A DNA stretch of 37,456 bases. Origin: Gammaproteobacteria bacterium. Lineage in GTDB: Bacteria > Pseudomonadota > Gammaproteobacteria > SZUA-229. Positions 8,575-36,810 of the stretch are shown here, one piece after another. The stretch covers positions 1 through 37,456 of the forward strand of contig JARFRD010000158.1 in assembly GCA_029287435.1 (NCBI GenBank). The letters are read 5' to 3'. The notes beneath the pieces are model-generated. The model saw nothing but the letters and a program-made list of their open reading frames with translations, ran no database searches and was not told the origin of the DNA. The stretch's first letter is position 1, and every line of letters starts with the position of its first letter. The translations under genes were made by a program, and so were the position numbers.

Positions 8575-9090
8575 TCACGCATCCTGTGATTCCAGGTCTC
8601 TGAGGTATTTGAACAGTTTTCTCGCGGAGCCTGGTGGTTTGTTTTCCCTTGCTTCCTTGTCGGCCTGTCGTACCAGGTTGTGGATATGCTGACGGTCTAG
8701 TTGTGGATGTGCATCGATAATTTCACCAAGTACGACCTTGTCGTTTTCTAATAGACGGTCACGCCATCTTTCGATTCTCTTGAACTGTGCAGTGTTGGTA
8801 TCATTTTTATGCAGCACCTTGTTGAGTTGCGTAGCGATGTCTTCACTATCGCATGTGCGTATGATTTTCCCGATGTACTGACGTTGTCGTTTCAGTGCGC
8901 TATGGGATTTTAGTTTACGTGCCTCAAGTATGGCGAGCTCGAGTTCTTCCGGTAACGAAATACTTGCAAGCTCGTCGGCTTTCAGCTTGATCAGTTGTTC
9001 GCCAATTTTTTGCAGCGCGTCACAGTCACGTTTCTTCTGTGATTTGCTTATCCATTCTTCCTTGGCGCTATCGTCATTAATAGTCATCAT
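8575..9090 (-). CDS. darP: dual-action ribosomal maturation protein DarP (YjgA, DUF615)
   Basis: DarP (YjgA) associates with late 50S precursors and helps peptidyl-transferase centre maturation. The residues EWISKSQKKRDCDALQKIGE and the end NKPPGSARKLFKYLRDLE line up with E. coli YjgA, including its WVSKSEIKRD and NKPPKSARQIFQYLREL segments. The frame is open 18 bases further upstream, but ATG 9090 (or the adjacent ATG 9087) gives the normal length and overlaps the end of the DUF3108 gene. It is the last gene of the purM-purN-DUF3108-darP run and converges on the nitrilase gene, with 24 bases between them. Confidence 0.93.
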   Translation of the reverse strand: MMTINDDSAKEEWISKSQKKRDCDALQKIGEQLIKLKADELASISLPEELELAILEARKLKSHSALKRQRQYIGKIIRTCDSEDIATQLNKVLHKNDTNTAQFKRIERWRDRLLENDKVVLGEIIDAHPQLDRQHIHNLVRQADKEARENKPPGSARKLFKYLRDLESQDA

Positions 9091-28164: not shown

Positions 28165-28199
28165 AAAAAAAACCGGAATAAAGTATATCCCGGTTTTTT
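28165..28199 (-). terminator. intrinsic terminator of the hydrogenase structural operon
   Basis: On the minus strand an 8-bp stem CCGGGATA/TATTCCGG (one G-T pair) with a 5-base loop, flanked by A and T tracts. It lies 41 bases after the stop of the small exported protein gene. Together with the palindrome at 28038 it makes a tandem stop. Confidence 0.85.
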
Positions 28200-28239: not shown

Positions 28240-28431
28240 TCAATGCTTCAGTATCACGCCTATTGCAATTGCTACAACAACGGTGAGTACAATGAGCAGG
28301 TGTTCGCCGTGTATTGCTGCGTGAAAACTGTTCGCAACTTCGTGCCCGGGGTGTGCCAAGGCAGCCGAACTTGCCACACTTGATAGTGTTGTTGCGGATA
28401 ATAAGCGGATAAATAGTTTCTTTATGTGCAT
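28240..28431 (-). CDS. small exported histidine-rich membrane peptide of the hydrogenase operon
   Basis: A 63-residue protein, the last gene of the hydrogenase operon, 18 bases after the large-subunit gene. It has a signal peptide (1-26, cleavage ALA-HPGH). The mature chain of about 37 residues would begin HPGHE, then FHAAIHGEHLL (His37, 41, 44), then one membrane helix (about 45-61) ending in Lys-His. The HPGH start and HxEHLL are reminiscent of HupE/UreJ nickel permeases, but the protein is far too short to be one. I infer a metal- or haem-related accessory role; no function is established. Confidence 0.72.
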   Translation of the reverse strand: MHIKKLFIRLLSATTLSSVASSAALAHPGHEVANSFHAAIHGEHLLIVLTVVVAIAIGVILKH

Positions 28432-28449
28432 TATGTAGCTCCAGAATAA

Positions 28450-30171
28450 TCAGCGTACTTTAACCGTTGTCAGTTCCTTGCCGTCAGGATCTGTCATATG
28501 AACAGCACAGGCAATACATGGATCGAAGCTGTGAATGGTACGCAGGACTTCTATGGGTTGTTCAGGATCGTGCATCGTGTGATTGTCTTCGAGAGCAGCT
28601 TCATAGGCACCTGGCTGGCCATTTGCATCACGCGGACCGGCGTTCCAGGTGCTCGGGACCACAGCCTGGTAGTTTTTAATGCGCTCGTCCTCGATAACAA
28701 TCCAGTGAGCCAGGCCGCCACGAGGTGCTTCCATGAAGCCAACACCCTGTGCCTGTTTCGGCCATGAAGAAGGTTCCCAAAGTACTTCGTTAAAGGTGCG
28801 GGTATCTCCGGCCTTGATATTGGCCACGAGGTCATCGTACCAGCCTTGCATGGCATCGGCGAAAATCTTGGTTTCCAGTGTACGAGCAGCAGTGCGACCC
28901 AAAGTAGAGAACAGGGCTTCGACAGGCACATCCAGTTTATTCAGTGTCATGCCAACCAGATCCTTGGTCTGGTCATGGCCGGATGCATACAGCATCAGTA
29001 CACGTGCCAGCGGGCCAACTTCCATGGCGTTGCCTTTCCAGCGCGGTGACTTCAGCCATGAGTAGGACTGATCAACATCGAGGTGGTCGTAGGGCGGAGT
29101 AGGGCCAGTGTAATTCAGCTTGGTTTCGCCATCATAGGGATGCAGGCCTGTAGTTTTGCCACCGTCGTAGTCGTACCAGGAATGTGCGACGTATTCCTGG
29201 ATCTCGCTGCTATCATGCATGTTGACCTCATGAATCGTGCTCAGGTCGCGATTCAGAATGGCACCGCCAGGAATCAGGTAACCCGTCGGGTCTTCCATCC
29301 CATTGGAAGGAAAGTCGCCATAGGTCAGGAAGTTGCCCAGACCTTCACCACGGCTGCCCCAGTCCTTGTAGAAACTGGCGATCGCCAGGGTGTCAGGAAT
29401 ATAAACCTGTTCTACAAAGGTATTCATCTGGTTGATGATGTCCTGCACCTGGGCAAGACGCTTGGCGTTAATTGCTGAATCAGAATTCAGGTCAATCGGG
29501 CAGGGCACACCGCCAACAACGAAATTCGGGTGCGGATTTTTACCACCAAAAATAGTGTGCAAGCGGGCAACGTCACGCTGCCATGAGAGAGCTTCAAGAT
29601 AATGCGCCACAGCCATCAGGTTGGCTTCTGGTGGCAGTTTGTAAGCTGGATGGCCCCAGTATGCCTTGGCGAAGATGCCAAGCTGTCCGGCCTCGACAAA
29701 GTCTTTCAGCTTCTTCTTCATGTCGGCGAAGTAGCCGGGTGATGACTTTGGATAATTGCTCAGTGACTGTGCCAGTTCAGAGGTGGCTTTAGGATCAGCG
29801 CTGAGTGCAGAAACAACATCAACCCAGTCCAGCGCATGCAGGTGATAGAAGTGCATGACGTGGTCATGGATATACTGCGCGCCGTTCATCAGGTTGCGGA
29901 TCAGGTCAGCATTTTTCGGAACCTGGTAGTTCAGTGCATTTTCTACTGAACGGATAGAAGCCAAGCCATGCACCAACGTGCATACACCGCAGATACGCTG
30001 TGCAAATGCCCAGGCATCACGCGGGTCGCGGCCCTTCAGAATGGTTTCGATACCGCGAACCATGGTGCCAGAAGAATAGGCACTTGCGATCTTGTCGCCT
30101 TCCATTTGGGCTTCGATGCGCAGATGTCCCTCGATTCGGGTAATCGGGTCAACGACAATTCTGTCACTCAT
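28450..30171 (-). CDS. hynL: [NiFe]-hydrogenase large subunit (Isp-type, group 1e-like)
   Basis: This 573-residue catalytic subunit carries the NiFe(CN)2CO centre that splits H2. The nickel ligands are Cys61 and Cys64 (RICGVCTLVHG) and Cys552 and Cys555 (DPCIACAVH). After His558 a 15-residue tail remains; this would be removed by the maturation protease encoded at the start of the same operon. The protein lacks its own signal and would be exported with the Tat-bearing small subunit. It is separated from the small-subunit gene by isp1 and isp2, the order known from Thiocapsa roseopersicina hynS-isp1-isp2-hynL, which identifies the type. Confidence 0.96.
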   Translation of the reverse strand: MSDRIVVDPITRIEGHLRIEAQMEGDKIASAYSSGTMVRGIETILKGRDPRDAWAFAQRICGVCTLVHGLASIRSVENALNYQVPKNADLIRNLMNGAQYIHDHVMHFYHLHALDWVDVVSALSADPKATSELAQSLSNYPKSSPGYFADMKKKLKDFVEAGQLGIFAKAYWGHPAYKLPPEANLMAVAHYLEALSWQRDVARLHTIFGGKNPHPNFVVGGVPCPIDLNSDSAINAKRLAQVQDIINQMNTFVEQVYIPDTLAIASFYKDWGSRGEGLGNFLTYGDFPSNGMEDPTGYLIPGGAILNRDLSTIHEVNMHDSSEIQEYVAHSWYDYDGGKTTGLHPYDGETKLNYTGPTPPYDHLDVDQSYSWLKSPRWKGNAMEVGPLARVLMLYASGHDQTKDLVGMTLNKLDVPVEALFSTLGRTAARTLETKIFADAMQGWYDDLVANIKAGDTRTFNEVLWEPSSWPKQAQGVGFMEAPRGGLAHWIVIEDERIKNYQAVVPSTWNAGPRDANGQPGAYEAALEDNHTMHDPEQPIEVLRTIHSFDPCIACAVHMTDPDGKELTTVKVR

Positions 30172-30210: not shown

Positions 30211-31467
30211 TTAGTCAGCCAGGTGTTCTGCCAGGGTTTCAGTCAGACTCAGCAGCGGTATCTCCATGTGATATTCCTCAAGTCCGTCCTCGAGATGAAT
30301 ACGGCAGTTTGAGCAGGCGCTGACAATAGCATCCGGCTTGATCTCATCCAGCTGGTCTTTCTTGCGCTGGAAAACTTTCAGCCTGATTTCATTAGCGCGT
30401 TCATTGGAGCTGACACCGCCACCGGCACCACAGCACCAGTTCATCTTGCCGGCATCGGGCATTTCCACGAAATCATCCGCAATCATGTTGAGCAGGTTGC
30501 GAGGTTCATCAATAACACCACCGCGACGCGAGATCTGGCATGGATCGTGATAAGTGAGACGCTGGCTTTCTTTACCGGTGGTTTTCAGTCGGCCATCCTT
30601 GCGGAATTCATCCAGAACTTCGAGTATGTGCCTGACCTTGAAGTCAAAAGGCTTACCGACCAGGTTGGGTCCATCCCAGCGAATAGCCATGTAGGCATGG
30701 CCGCATTCAGGGCTGATCACGGTTTTAACTTTCAGTTTCTCTGCAGCATCGACAATCCGTTGAACCAGTTCGGCAGCAATGTCGGATACGCCAATCTGGA
30801 TGCCGCTGTTGGTAGCTTCGAAGGCTTCACTCGAGATAGTCCAGGTGACACCGGCCTTGTCGAATATTTTCGCAACAGCTTCAATGAACTCGGGAAAGTT
30901 CATGATTTCCATCGACGATAACAGCAGCATGTAGTCGGCACCCACAACATCCACTGGAATGGTCATGCCCGTGTCATTTTCCACGTGTTTAATCTGTGCC
31001 TGTAGTGCAGGAAATTTGACACCCATGGGGCTGCCTATGGTAACAGCACGTTTTGTGGCGCCGATAAGGCCGTCAGGTGCATGACCAGCAGCGGCCATGC
31101 CTTCGCGTGTTTTACGAATCATCGCAGCAATATCATTGCCCACAGGGCAGACCATGGAGCAGCGTCCACAAAGGGTGCAACTGTCATACACCAGGGTTTC
31201 CCAATCTGCGAGTAGTTCGTCGGTGACGGGTTTGGTCAGGCCGAACAATTTACCGATACGACCAAACAGTGTGTATTCAGATTTCCAGATCCTGCGAAGC
31301 GGTTCGGTCTTGTTGATCGGTGTTCGTTCAGGGCCCCCTGTTTCTGTATAGAAAAGACAGGCATCAGCACACATGCCGCAATGCACGCAGCTGCTGAAAA
31401 ACGCGGCGACAGATGAGTCAACCTGTTCCTTCAGTGCATTGATACCTTTTTCTAAAGATGCGCTCAT
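30211..31467 (-). CDS. isp2: Isp2, HdrCB-like iron-sulfur protein
   Basis: A 418-residue cytoplasmic electron carrier. Two [4Fe-4S] sites are present (Cys27/30/33/37 and Cys97/100/103/107), as in HdrC and GlpC. One CCG domain follows, with Cys310, CCG at 345-347 and Cys385/388; HdrB proteins usually have two, and the first domain here has no cysteines. Isp2 is thought to pair with Isp1 to move electrons between the hydrogenase and the quinone pool or a thiol/disulfide acceptor. Its start overlaps the isp1 stop by 4 bases; hynL follows after 39 bases. Confidence 0.93.
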   Translation of the reverse strand: MSASLEKGINALKEQVDSSVAAFFSSCVHCGMCADACLFYTETGGPERTPINKTEPLRRIWKSEYTLFGRIGKLFGLTKPVTDELLADWETLVYDSCTLCGRCSMVCPVGNDIAAMIRKTREGMAAAGHAPDGLIGATKRAVTIGSPMGVKFPALQAQIKHVENDTGMTIPVDVVGADYMLLLSSMEIMNFPEFIEAVAKIFDKAGVTWTISSEAFEATNSGIQIGVSDIAAELVQRIVDAAEKLKVKTVISPECGHAYMAIRWDGPNLVGKPFDFKVRHILEVLDEFRKDGRLKTTGKESQRLTYHDPCQISRRGGVIDEPRNLLNMIADDFVEMPDAGKMNWCCGAGGGVSSNERANEIRLKVFQRKKDQLDEIKPDAIVSACSNCRIHLEDGLEEYHMEIPLLSLTETLAEHLAD

Positions 31468-32123
31468 GACTCTACCCCCCGGTAACCTGATATGGCACCG
31501 TTATACCAACGTGCCATGAATAACGTGAATGCGTGCATTAACTTGGTGAAAGGGAACACAATCATTAGTATTTCCACGCTTAGAATATGAATGCCCAGCA
31601 GTGTTGGTGCCGTAAAGCCGATACGATGGAACGCAATGTATCCAGTCACCAGCGGTGCAATGGTCACAAACCATACCAGCAGATCTTCAAAATTGGTCAG
31701 GTAGTGCAGTACCTTGTTACTAAACCGGTGAATCAGTATTGCAAGCAGGGAAATAATACTGATGACTGCAAAGGCATCGACGACGGGTGTTGGCAGTGCC
31801 GGCCAGCTGATACCGACAATATCCTTGATCAACAGGATATGGGGTGCGTACAGGAATATCGTGACGAAGAGTCCTATATGGAAGATGTACCCGGTGACGA
31901 TGGTAAACGTCGAACGCTTGAACGAGTCAGCTTGAGGTACTGATCGAGTCACAATCGTTCTGAGACCACTCGACATTTCAGAACCCTTGGCTTCGGCAAG
32001 ATTAGCTTTTCTGCCAAGCAGGATAATCTCGAAAATTCTTATCAGGACTCCGGCAACGAAGATGATAGTGGCAATCTGGAAACCGGGGCCACGCACCCAG
32101 TTCAGAAAATCAATTTCAGTCAT
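31464..32123 (-). CDS. isp1: Isp1, NarI-like cytochrome b subunit
   Basis: A 219-residue membrane protein with about five helices (roughly 16-36, 76-98, 117-133, 147-165, 176-200), of the nitrate reductase gamma subunit type. Candidate haem b ligands are His82, His95, His179 and His197. It would anchor the hydrogenase at the periplasmic side of the membrane and pass electrons inward to Isp2 or to quinone. The position between small-subunit gene (23 bases upstream) and isp2 (4-base overlap) is diagnostic of Isp-type hydrogenases. Confidence 0.92.
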   Translation of the reverse strand: MTEIDFLNWVRGPGFQIATIIFVAGVLIRIFEIILLGRKANLAEAKGSEMSSGLRTIVTRSVPQADSFKRSTFTIVTGYIFHIGLFVTIFLYAPHILLIKDIVGISWPALPTPVVDAFAVISIISLLAILIHRFSNKVLHYLTNFEDLLVWFVTIAPLVTGYIAFHRIGFTAPTLLGIHILSVEILMIVFPFTKLMHAFTLFMARWYNGAISGYRGVES

Positions 32124-32146: not shown

Positions 32147-33247
32147 CTATTTTTCAAGGTCTTCTATAGTCGTGTTGGGATGCGCCTTGGTGGCCGCATT
32201 TTTCTTGGCGCGGTTAAGCGCACCAGCCGCGACACCAACTGCTGCAGCACCGGCTGCTGTGTACAGTGCTGTTTGCGTAATGTTTTCTGTTGGCATTGAC
32301 AGGGCCTTGTAGAAGCCGCCACCATCCCAGAAATCGGGTTCCGAACAACCGATGCATGGGTGTCCGGCCTCAATCGGGAAGCTGGTACCGTTATTCCACT
32401 TGGTGGTTGCGCAGGCGTTGTAGGTAGTCGGCCCTTTGCAACCGAGCTTGAACAGGCACCAGCCTTTCTGGGCGCCTTCATCATCAAAAGTCTCGGCAAA
32501 CAGGCCCTTGTCATAGAAAGGTCGACGGTAGCATCTGTCGTGAATGCTCTGGCCATAAAATACTTTGGGTCGACCGATATGATCCAGCTCGGGGATGGTG
32601 CCAAAAGTCAGGAAATGGGTGACCACGCCGGTAATGACGACCGGGATCGGTGGACAACCGGGTACGTTTATAATGGGCTTGTCCTTGATTAAATCACCGA
32701 CCGATACCGCGCCGGTTGGATTCGGTTTCGCATGTGGAATGCCGCCATACGTTGCACAGGTGCCGACAGCGATAATGGCTGCAGCGCCTTTGGCAGTATC
32801 CATCAGCATGTCATAGTTGCTGATGCCGGCGATGGTTGAATAACCGGGATTATCCATCGGGATCGAGCCATCGACGACCAGAATGTAATTGCCATGATTT
32901 TCTTCCATGGCTGCTTCTCGCGCGGCCTCGGCAGCATGACCGGAAGCAGCCTGCAGCGTGTGGTGATAGTCCAGTGAAATGGAGTCGAAAATCAGGTTTT
33001 CAATGGTCGCTGAATGCGAACGTGTCAGTGATTCGGTACAGCCGGTGCATTCCTGGAAAGACAGCCAGATGACGGAAGGTCTTTTCGCATTCTCCAGTGC
33101 ATGAGCGACTTTCGGGATCATGGCGGGTGGAAGCGCCATCATCGATGCAGTCGCAGCACAGAATTTCAGGAAGCTGCGACGGGAAATACCCCGACTACGC
33201 AAGGTATCTCCAAGTGTCTTGTTCTTATCGTCAAATTTATTTGTCAT
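32147..33247 (-). CDS. hynS: [NiFe]-hydrogenase small subunit with Tat signal
   Basis: A 366-residue Fe-S subunit. The Tat signal is SRRSFLKF (residues 22-29), with cleavage near VAHA (50). The proximal cluster ligands are Cys67, Cys70, Cys164 and Cys198; the distal are His236, Cys239, Cys264 and Cys270; the medial are Cys279, Cys298 and Cys301. The two extra proximal cysteines of oxygen-tolerant group 1d enzymes are absent (Gly69 and Gly169 instead), so a standard cluster is expected. A weakly hydrophobic Ala/Gly-rich segment (327-344) and a basic/acidic tail end the protein. The gene overlaps the HyaF-like stop by 4 bases. Confidence 0.96.
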   Translation of the reverse strand: MTNKFDDKNKTLGDTLRSRGISRRSFLKFCAATASMMALPPAMIPKVAHALENAKRPSVIWLSFQECTGCTESLTRSHSATIENLIFDSISLDYHHTLQAASGHAAEAAREAAMEENHGNYILVVDGSIPMDNPGYSTIAGISNYDMLMDTAKGAAAIIAVGTCATYGGIPHAKPNPTGAVSVGDLIKDKPIINVPGCPPIPVVITGVVTHFLTFGTIPELDHIGRPKVFYGQSIHDRCYRRPFYDKGLFAETFDDEGAQKGWCLFKLGCKGPTTYNACATTKWNNGTSFPIEAGHPCIGCSEPDFWDGGGFYKALSMPTENITQTALYTAAGAAAVGVAAGALNRAKKNAATKAHPNTTIEDLEK

Positions 33248-33684
33248 TCCGATTTCTCCACCGATGACTCGTTGTTTTCTTCCAGGGTTGTATCAAATGC
33301 TTCGTACGCAGCAATCATATCTTCACGTTGCGAGCAAAGAATTTCAGGCATCATGGTTACTTCTATAAACCGGCCGATAATATCTTCTTCATCATTGTAA
33401 TGAGTAACAATCCATATACCTGCATACCGGGTTTCAGTGATTTCACTGGGTCCCAGTGCGTTCAGTTTCGCCTGTATTTCGCCCACGCCCAGTGTCTGCA
33501 GAATCCTGTCTTCTTCACCAGGTGCAAGTGGAATACTGCGTAAATCTATAACTGTTGTTTCGCCACTCTCTATCAGCTTGTTAAGAGCATGTTTGACTTC
33601 ATGTAACAGCGGCATGACATTCCACGTGAGGTCATTGCCGATCTGTATATTAAATGGGCTGGTGGCAGTTTCTGGCATAGTCAT
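33244..33684 (-). CDS. HyaF/HupH-like hydrogenase maturation domain protein
   Basis: A 146-residue protein corresponding to the HupH/HyaF C-terminal domain. The recognisable stretch runs from IPLAPGEEDRILQTLGVGEIQAKLNAL through ITETRYAGIWIVTHYNDEEDIIGRFIEVTMMPEIL. Full HyaF/HupH proteins are about twice as long, so this is a single-domain version. Members take part in hydrogenase (probably small-subunit) assembly. The start codon at 33684 follows the universal stress gene stop after one base, and the end overlaps hynS by 4 bases, so it is firmly inside the operon. Confidence 0.83.
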   Translation of the reverse strand: MTMPETATSPFNIQIGNDLTWNVMPLLHEVKHALNKLIESGETTVIDLRSIPLAPGEEDRILQTLGVGEIQAKLNALGPSEITETRYAGIWIVTHYNDEEDIIGRFIEVTMMPEILCSQREDMIAAYEAFDTTLEENNESSVEKSE

Positions 33685-33685
33685 T

Positions 33686-34531
33686 CTATGCGGTTATGAT
33701 CGGGCACTGAGGCTCGGCAGACCAGACCAGTAACGGGCAGTTCGCATGGCGTATGACTTCTGCGGTGACTGATTCGTCCATTGCGATCTTGTCGCCATCA
33801 TTACCATGCGTTGCCATTGATACCAGGTCAATATCCATGGCATCAACGCGATCAAGAATTTCCCTGATTGGGTGTTTGTATGTGGTCATATCCAATGAGA
33901 CCTTGAGCCCGGTATTGGCCAGCTCTACACTCTGGTCCTGTAGCTTGGCCTTGATCGCAGCCTTTTCATCTTCGGATTCGATATGCGCCAGTTCATCATG
34001 GAACAGAATAACTTCCGAATCGTGCATCTTGGCAAAGTGCTCTACACACTCCATTATGGCTGAAGATGCATCAGATCCATCCAGAGGAACCAGAATACGT
34101 CTGAACAGATCTTCGGTTCTTGGCTGCACAGGTTCCGGTCGTGTGCTGTGCAGTATGAAAATAGGGCAGGGCGACTGTTTCAGTACTTGCTCTGTAACGC
34201 TGCCTTCACGAATGCGCTCAATTCCGGAGCGGCCATGTGTAGACATAACTATCAATGTAGCCGGCGTCAAGATCGCCATTTTGATGATTTCCCTGACCGG
34301 GTCTCCCATGCGAACTTCGCGGTCAACAGACCAGCCCTCGAAATCGAGTGCTTCATAAATGATATTCACATTAGGGTGGGTATCGAGAGCTGCACGTGCA
34401 GTATCAACAGTTGGTGTTACATGCAAAAGAATTATGCGCGTTGTTTCTTTTGGGGAAATTGAACGCACATAAACCAGTGTTTCATCGGTGGATTCAGAAC
34501 CGTCTATCGGGATAAGAATTGTTTGTTCCAT
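33686..34531 (-). CDS. tandem-domain universal stress protein in the hydrogenase operon
   Basis: A 281-residue UspA-family protein made of two Usp domains (about 1-130 and 143-272). Domain 1 has the ATP-binding pattern THG-x9-GS (98-111). In domain 2 the matching stretch is THG-x9-ES (241-253), with Glu253 in place of Gly, so only the first domain may bind nucleotide. Each domain starts with the typical strand (ILIPIDGS, ILVPLDGS). It lies 27 bases after the protease gene and 1 base before the HyaF-like gene. Its role here is unknown; it may tie hydrogenase assembly to energy state, which is inference. Confidence 0.92.
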   Translation of the reverse strand: MEQTILIPIDGSESTDETLVYVRSISPKETTRIILLHVTPTVDTARAALDTHPNVNIIYEALDFEGWSVDREVRMGDPVREIIKMAILTPATLIVMSTHGRSGIERIREGSVTEQVLKQSPCPIFILHSTRPEPVQPRTEDLFRRILVPLDGSDASSAIMECVEHFAKMHDSEVILFHDELAHIESEDEKAAIKAKLQDQSVELANTGLKVSLDMTTYKHPIREILDRVDAMDIDLVSMATHGNDGDKIAMDESVTAEVIRHANCPLLVWSAEPQCPIITA

Positions 34532-34558: not shown

Positions 34559-35092
34559 TTATGCTGCACTAGAATTGTTACAATACTGTTTCGATGCAGA
34601 AAATTCTTGATCTGTATTAACTTCCTGCCATTGTCTGATTAAAGTAATGGCTTCCTTAACTGCCTGCTCAAGTCCCTTTCTTACTGCATCTGTCGGTTCC
34701 ATGCCCCAGTCCATATATTCCGGCTGGATACCGATCAGTGCACGATTCTCGGGTAGATGCTCGGTGATGCGCGCGATATCCATCAGATCGAGCAGGCCGA
34801 CTTCATGTGCGCTGCGTTTGCTGGTGCCGAGGAACTCATCCATGTCGGCGCCTACATAGGTTTTAACAGTGCCGGCTGGCTGATGGAGTTCGGCAGCATC
34901 AAATACGATCAGATTGTCACAGTCTTCAATCCATGTGGCCAGGGTGAAGCTCAGAGTGCCGCCATCGAGAAAGGTAAGATTTGGTATATCAGGATATTCT
35001 GATTGGAGAAGCTTCAACGCATGTATACCTGCGCCTTCATCGGAGAGCAGGGTATTGCCAATCCCCAGAATTAAAGTTTCGCTAGAGGTCAT
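34559..35092 (-). CDS. hyaD: hydrogenase maturation protease (HyaD/HupD family)
   Basis: This 177-residue nickel-dependent endopeptidase cuts the C-terminal tail of the large subunit after NiFe insertion. The N-terminus LILGIGNTLLSDEGAGIHAL contains the first nickel-binding acidic residue. The second acidic residue lies in LIVFDAAEL and the His in SAHEVGLLDL, matching the E/D/H set of the family. It is the first gene of the structural operon and is divergent from hypC, with 140 bases between their starts. Its presumed target is hynL, whose 15-residue tail is intact. Confidence 0.93.
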   Translation of the reverse strand: MTSSETLILGIGNTLLSDEGAGIHALKLLQSEYPDIPNLTFLDGGTLSFTLATWIEDCDNLIVFDAAELHQPAGTVKTYVGADMDEFLGTSKRSAHEVGLLDLMDIARITEHLPENRALIGIQPEYMDWGMEPTDAVRKGLEQAVKEAITLIRQWQEVNTDQEFSASKQYCNNSSAA

Positions 35093-35943: not shown

Positions 35944-36810
35944 ATGTGTGACACTTGTGGTTGTAATATTACCCACGGAAACGAGAGTCTGATTCGCCCG
36001 GGTGGCAAGCTTGAAAAGACCGAGAGTGGCCGTGAAGCGGTGAGCGTGTTACATAACCTGCTACACGAGAATGATCACACGGCAAAACATAATCGTGATC
36101 ATTTTGATCAGCATAATGTGCTCGCGATCAACTTGATGTCTTCTCCCGGCGCAGGCAAGACAGCTTTGCTTGAAGCAACCATTCAACAGCTGGGTGCTGG
36201 TCTCAGAATGGCTGTTATCGAAGGTGACCTTGAAACCGAGAATGATGCCGAGCGTATTCGCAAACATGGGGTAGAGGCGATTCAGATAGCAACAGGTAGC
36301 GCCTGCCATCTTGATGCGCACATGATTCACCAGGCGTTACATAATCTCGACCTTTCAAAATTTGACGTCGTGTTTATCGAGAATGTCGGTAACCTCGTAT
36401 GTCCGGCAAGTTTTGACCTTGGGCAACACCTGAACGTTACCCTGTTATCCGTGCCGGAAGGTGACGACAAGCCGGCCAAGTATCCTGTTATGTTTCGCAC
36501 TGCAGACCTGGTATTGATCAGCAAGAGTGATTTATTACCGGTGCTCGACGATTTCAAACCCGAGTCAGCAAAGCGTTATCTTCGTGATATTGCCAGTACC
36601 GCACCGGTCGCGGAGCTGTCAGCAAAGAACAATGCCGGCATGGACTTCTGGCTCGACTGGATCAGCCAGCAGATCGATAGTCGTAAACAGTATCTTGAAC
36701 AGCATCCGGTGCAGACTGGTCACGCTCACGACCACGAGCATGATCATGGTCATCACCATCATCAAGCGCATCATACGCACCATCATCAACACGATGAGGA
36801 TGCTGTGTAG
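35944..36810 (+). CDS. hypB: hydrogenase nickel incorporation GTPase HypB with C-terminal His tail
   Basis: A 288-residue SIMIBI GTPase that drives nickel delivery with HypA. The N-terminus has the high-affinity nickel motif CDTCGC (residues 2-7). The P-loop is SSPGAGKT (66-73), and IEGDLETENDAERI and ENVGNLVCP follow, all typical. The tail from 260 to 283 contains 15 His in 24 residues, interspersed with Asp/Glu. In Rhizobium and Bradyrhizobium HypB the His-rich stretch lies near the N-terminus, so this placement is unusual. The ribosome site GGGAG (35933-35937) is good. hypD follows after 2 bases. Confidence 0.96.
   Translation: MCDTCGCNITHGNESLIRPGGKLEKTESGREAVSVLHNLLHENDHTAKHNRDHFDQHNVLAINLMSSPGAGKTALLEATIQQLGAGLRMAVIEGDLETENDAERIRKHGVEAIQIATGSACHLDAHMIHQALHNLDLSKFDVVFIENVGNLVCPASFDLGQHLNVTLLSVPEGDDKPAKYPVMFRTADLVLISKSDLLPVLDDFKPESAKRYLRDIASTAPVAELSAKNNAGMDFWLDWISQQIDSRKQYLEQHPVQTGHAHDHEHDHGHHHHQAHHTHHHQHDEDAV

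Follow-up and report, generated by a model that had tools for sequence, protein, structure and literature searches.

The window analysed here, a stretch of 37,456 nucleotides of contig JARFRD010000158.1 from a gammaproteobacterial assembly (GCA_029287435.1), carries a [NiFe]-hydrogenase operon on its minus strand. The gene order is HycI-type protease, universal stress protein, hupH-type gene, hynS, isp1, isp2, hynL and, in last position, the gene of a short peptide, with hypC, hypA and hypB lying divergent from the operon. The genes preceding that of the peptide are the following:

28450..30171, minus strand: hynL, [NiFe]-hydrogenase large subunit (PF00374, E 1.5e-240)
30211..31467, minus strand: isp2, Fe-S / CCG-domain protein
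31464..32123, minus strand: isp1, NarI-like cytochrome b (weak PF02665 match and gene order)
32147..33247, minus strand: hynS, small subunit with a Tat signal
33244..33684, minus strand: hupH-type maturation gene (PF04809)
33686..34531, minus strand: tandem universal-stress-protein gene inside the operon, between the protease and hupH-type genes (PF00582)
34559..35092, minus strand: hydrogenase maturation protease, HycI family (PF01750)

The HypB encoded at 35944-36810 combines an N-terminal MCDTCGCN with a very His-rich C-terminal tail, and is likely a nickel store. The same genome encodes a second hydrogenase large subunit, 62% identical to that of the window and ended by a contig edge (G000:C24:2-1504).

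The peptide is encoded by an open reading frame of 63 codons at 28240-28431 on the minus strand, whose translation, read from the sequence, is MHIKKLFIRLLSATTLSSVASSAALAHPGHEVANSFHAAIHGEHLLIVLTVVVAIAIGVILKH. Its gene, its parts and the signals around it are:

28240..28431, minus strand: putative mini-HupE gene, 63 aa, stop TGA at 28240-28242; conserved after hynL in relatives
28354..28431, minus strand: predicted signal peptide, residues 1-26, ending in A-L-A (sequence reading; AlphaFold2 helix 2-24)
28342..28353, minus strand: predicted mature N-terminus HPGH, with His27 as mature residue 1 (His1, invariant in relatives)
28300..28323, minus strand: H37-AAIHG-E43-H44, counterpart by alignment of the HupE helix-1 motif HPxxGxDH
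28249..28299, minus strand: single transmembrane helix, residues 45-61, followed by KH (sequence; AlphaFold2 helix 42-62)
28439..28442, minus strand: GGAG as ribosome-binding site, 7 nt upstream of the ATG
28167..28199, minus strand: hairpin whose 3' arm is U-rich, probably the terminator of the operon (RNA fold)

The hynL stop codon (TGA, 28450-28452) is separated from the peptide gene by an 18-nt gap, and 40 nt past the gene a 14-bp hairpin runs into a U tract (RNA fold z -5.9, with 0 of 200 shuffles as good), which is absent from the output of a simple terminator scan. A 63-residue peptide thus ends the hydrogenase operon, as the earlier note had read it, and the accompanying description of an exported product with a mature HPGH start, three more histidines and one helix is borne out by the predicted cleavage site and the sequence. 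The signal-peptidase motif ALA, followed by H, predicts the HPGH start, after which His37, His41 and His44 precede one hydrophobic helix (45-61), and the last residue (63) is a further histidine. Among relatives, the A-x-A motif followed by H is conserved, with alanine at position -1 of the predicted cleavage site in at least 90% of them, and the C-terminus is basic in most. AlphaFold2 models the peptide (mean pLDDT 72.5) with a signal helix at 2-24, a short helix at 32-39 and a membrane helix at 42-62 reaching a pLDDT of about 90 mid-helix, that is, with one transmembrane helix after the signal peptide as opposed to six in HupE/UreJ.

Members of the HupE/UreJ family take up nickel or, in some cases, cobalt; six helices are attributed to them, the first bearing the motif HPXXGXDH, and their genes occur in clusters for hydrogenase and for urease (PMC7689651). 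By profile comparison, the likeness of the window peptide to the N-terminus of HupE is one of homology, and the suggestion that it resembles a minimal piece of such permeases is thereby upheld. A profile of the mature peptides, from which the signal was excluded (A2), retrieves full-length HupE across Gammaproteobacteria and Pseudomonadota with E-values down to 2.5e-9, and alignment of peptides and HupE by hhalign, likewise excluding the signal peptide, gives a probability of 95.5% and E 1.4e-8 over 37 columns. Three histidines are invariant among 24 mature peptides, namely His1 and both histidines of H-x5-[D/E/H/Q]-H; His1 is also invariant in 33 full peptides, and His1 and both motif histidines are equally invariant in 11 full-length HupE. 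Exceptions to the motif are found in L045 and L034, which deviate, and in L041/L042, where the spacing is shorter.

When 31 peptides were scanned against Pfam at E up to 0.1, 22 matched HupE_UreJ (PF04955) and 17 matched DUF6732 (PF20506). Six relatives exceed the PF04955 cut-off of 23 (29.5, 29.3, 25.6, 25.1, 24.4 and 23.5 bits), and further ones fall below it; in these six the match is confined to positions 2-53 of the 179 in the model. The window peptide itself matches no Pfam family, neither HupE/UreJ nor DUF6732, so its link to HupE runs through relatives: it is placed by its alignment and its 46-48% identity to the peptides of G005 and G003, and a peptide from the same genus (G004/L030) passes both the DUF6732 (32.0 against 27) and the HupE_UreJ (25.6 against 23) thresholds. 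It keeps H-x5-E-H, with the P, G and D of HPxxGxDH replaced, while the 56-aa peptide of G028 has an unaltered, canonical HPMSGVDH. The second HupE metal motif, FHGxxHG, is present in full-length HupE and absent from the window peptide. AlphaFold2 gives full HupE a low confidence (pLDDT 52), its first elements (helices 3-26, 33-39 and 44-60) repeating the pattern of the one-helix form, and a sequence search found no solved structure of full HupE. The NCBIfam scan of the peptides returned chance-level matches only and no model naming them, hence they would usually be annotated as hypothetical; no description of one-helix HupE forms was found in the literature searched, outside which most subscription papers lie. 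Two further forms were observed: a 140-aa HupE in which the middle part is missing, near hypB (L155 1396-1818, in G155), which could be an intermediate between full and one-helix proteins, and an ORF of about 35 aa shortly after hynL (L070, ~8728-8850) with a signal peptide and AHGDH followed by no helix, perhaps further reduced or decayed.

To what extent is such a short reading frame maintained? Across 145 genomes, comprising the window's own and 144 relatives, the search with the window peptide found 18 genuine places including the window's own (E 3.6e-12 to 6.6e-4), all directly after hynL, so that the homologues sought downstream of other hynL genes do exist; matches in L019 and L020 were judged spurious. 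Since the genes downstream vary between genomes, the peptide's link is to hynL, and its start overlaps or abuts the hynL stop in many relatives. A hynL of at least 84% identity is present in 21 genomes of the window's family, 19 of which have the peptide, 18 from the sequence search and one (G028) from reading the locus; reading the locus of G021 revealed no peptide, and in G052 the contig ends at the site after hynL. No plasmid-borne homologue was found with either the window peptide or a ureG-linked peptide (see below) as query.

Substitution rates, proposed earlier as a check, indicate purifying selection, with dN/dS of 0.07-0.26 across unsaturated peptide pairs. For the mature part it is, for example, 0.07 in L051/L057, 0.10 in L022/L027 and 0.16 in L041/L042, and over the entire peptide it is 0.20 in L002/L003. 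To judge from these comparisons, the ORF is a conserved gene under purifying selection. The peptide does look like the first third of HupE, as a decaying and functionless hupE remnant might (a chance ORF being the other form of this reading), and yet it is intact in about 40 genomes and has its own terminator, and no remnants of later helices were found downstream; the low dN/dS and the absence of such remnants led to the pseudogene reading being ruled out, and functionlessness in general appears extremely improbable.

The site after hynL was sorted by eye in the 80 hynL loci nearest to that of the window, yielding 25 one-helix peptides (the least clear calls being L032, L034 and L045), 9 full-length HupE, 42 loci with neither and 4 unreadable ones. 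In a HynL tree of 103 rows, one-helix and full-length states interleave, and well supported branches force at least 8 changes of the former and at least 5 of the latter, in what is a quick tree with SH-aLRT support only, one long row (L142) and no polarisation of the older state. These counts are not frequencies, as the rows beyond the 80 were picked partly for carrying one of the forms. Truncation of HupE is inferred because the six-helix protein is the widespread form. Some hynL loci also encode a conserved protein of about 150 aa matching no Pfam family, whose gene separates isp2 from hynL or immediately follows hynL (L144 1747-2205, with similar ORFs after hynL in L056, L062, L063, L064, L066, L071 and L073), possibly an undescribed maturation factor.

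Hydrogenase operons of this type are not the only setting of the peptide. Six peptides known from the profile only, and left out of building it, all lie in clusters of nickel enzymes: beside hynL in G271, G177 and G154, beside hypE in G275, beside ureG in G563, and between ureA and ureB in G659. The ureG-linked peptide occurs in 11 of 24 genomes of the gammaproteobacterial genus of G563, five further loci of which (L246-L250) show ureDABCEFG followed by a one-helix peptide, and such a peptide also closes the ureDABCEFG operon at L211 4951-5133. This subgroup has H-x3-H and no D/E-H half, and its kinship to the other peptides appears weaker (A2 E 1.6e-4). Other examples are G016, where the peptide sits between a HycI protease gene and hybE in a Hyb-like cluster, and G096, where its neighbours are a hydrogenase protease gene and hypA/hypB, a separate gene for a hydrogenase large subunit lying about 3 kb away. 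DUF6732 peptides stand directly before cbiX-cobH-cobL in 9 of 10 alphaproteobacterial loci (L236-L244), and L245, the tenth, has an apparent B12-dependent ribonucleotide reductase nearby. This placement suggests a function in cobalt or iron supply; cobalt is likely given the cob neighbours, although, since CbiX proteins of Alphaproteobacteria can act as ferrochelatases (PMC4063343), it is not certain, and the metal may be iron. No cobalamin riboswitch was detected near the DUF6732 loci at gathering score, and no paper naming DUF6732 was found in the literature searched, which excludes most subscription papers.

These settings bear on the proposal that the peptide is an accessory, nickel- or haem-related, of Isp-type hydrogenases in particular. 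It could have a structural or assembly role as a subunit of the HynSL-Isp1-Isp2 complex, or be a haem or electron-transfer helper of Isp1 with its histidines serving haem or packing, as its gene comes last in the hynS-isp1-isp2-hynL operon and overlaps the hynL stop in several relatives. However, relatives are also found where Isp1 is absent, namely in a Hyb-like cluster, beside hypE, among hyp genes and in urease operons, the peptide is homologous to a metal permease, and 42 of the 80 close hynL operons do not have it at this site. We consider this reading distinctly unlikely, its haem or Isp1-partner version being rejected as the main one because of the relatives that lack Isp1. The restriction to Isp-type enzymes does not hold either, with peptides in Hyb-like, hypE, hypA/hypB, urease and cbiX-cobH-cobL settings, while the nickel link is probable.

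We favour, with a probability of roughly 60%, the reading that the window peptide is a reduced mini-HupE, a membrane-anchored periplasmic binder of Ni2+ or Co2+ that would supply metal to the enzyme of its operon. A periplasmic nickel- or cobalt-binding role is the best reading because the peptide repeats the HupE motif, would expose His1 and occurs in such genomic settings; since similar peptides lie in hydrogenase, urease and cobalamin-type clusters, helping nickel (or cobalt) supply is its most likely task. Exposed N-terminal histidines chelate metals of several kinds, and domains bearing such a His1 are fused to HupE/UreJ_2 permeases (PMC12537917). The mini-HupE would consist of the export signal, the metal-binding N-terminus and the first helix of a HupE/UreJ permease, kept as a stand-alone gene. 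Cleavage of the signal peptide would leave His1 as the N-terminus of a protein predicted to lie in the inner membrane with its N-terminus out and its C-terminus in, and the N-terminal amine, His1 and the H-x5-E-H cluster could together bind Ni2+ at the periplasmic face, the metal presumably being Co2+ in the cobalamin-linked relatives. The peptide may then concentrate metal for uptake and deliver it to another importer, self-assembly into a conduit being the less likely alternative. Metal supply would thereby be co-expressed with the enzyme requiring it.

Candidate importers were surveyed in 26 peptide-carrying genomes for four families (HupE/UreJ, HupE/UreJ_2, NicO and CbiM): HupE_UreJ_2 (PF13795) is present in 17, CbiM in 13, and NicO over the cut-off in 1. 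The window's genome (77% complete) encodes HupE_UreJ_2 and two CbiM, and no full PF04955 protein. In G154 and G271 (98-99% complete), no protein of the four families was found besides the peptide, therefore these partners are not obligatory. The same two genomes, and the fact that the one-helix form stands in for full HupE at the site following hynL, would fit a homo-oligomeric miniature permease, in which single helices form a ring around H-x5-(D/E)-H and pass Ni2+ in replacement of the six-helix protein; most genomes with the peptide nevertheless have another candidate importer (PF13795 in 17/26, CbiM in 13/26), and such a permease seems quite unlikely. Does the peptide need to serve uptake at all? 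An exposed N-terminal His chelator next to a His cluster, and the binding of several metals by N-terminal-His proteins (PMC12537917), could also suit a periplasmic buffer or protection peptide for Ni, Co, Cu or Zn, shielding the enzyme or taking part in sensing; its placement, however, tracks that of HupE/UreJ importers, which makes a role devoid of uptake very unlikely.

The peptide shows that selection can preserve HupE's metal site in helix 1 when the rest of the transporter is gone, and an unexplained Pfam family, DUF6732, would be tied to metal supply. More speculatively, and in our opinion unlikely, HupE may have been truncated several times independently, the 37-residue mature unit being by itself the smallest known Ni/Co uptake device, oligomerising or docking on unrelated permeases, with DUF6732 and the urease and hydrogenase peptides forming one functional class. 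Tiny and open to chemical synthesis, the mini-HupE would also lend itself to tests of how membranes capture the nickel required by hydrogenase and urease.

Among known systems, CbtB, the small subunit of a predicted cobalt transporter, is like the mini-HupE a protein of about 60 aa with one helix and a His motif, and differs in having this motif at the C-terminus and CbtA as partner; none of the 31 peptides matched CbtB at E 0.1. The Anglerase-HupE/UreJ_2 proteins (PF13795; PMC12537917) share a His1 exposed after signal cleavage and tied to a HupE-type helix bundle, whereas their His1 is borne by a folded domain fused to a whole permease. Closer in size are the DUF6732 proteins, of about 70 aa, with a signal peptide, an AHPGH mature end and one helix; the typical members found come from Alphaproteobacteria, lie ahead of cbiX, and bear GHDHW-type motifs together with an acidic tail, while the window peptide is under the reporting level of this family and adjoins hynL instead of cbiX. 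HupE/UreJ itself (PF04955) has in common with the mini-HupE the signal peptide, the mature His1, the helix-1 H-x5-(D/E)-H, the gene position after hynL and the kinds of gene clusters, and differs by its ~180-200 aa, its six helices and its second motif FHGxxHG, where the mini-HupE corresponds to helix 1 only, and in the window's clade the Gly of the HupE motif is replaced by a third His and the Asp by Glu.
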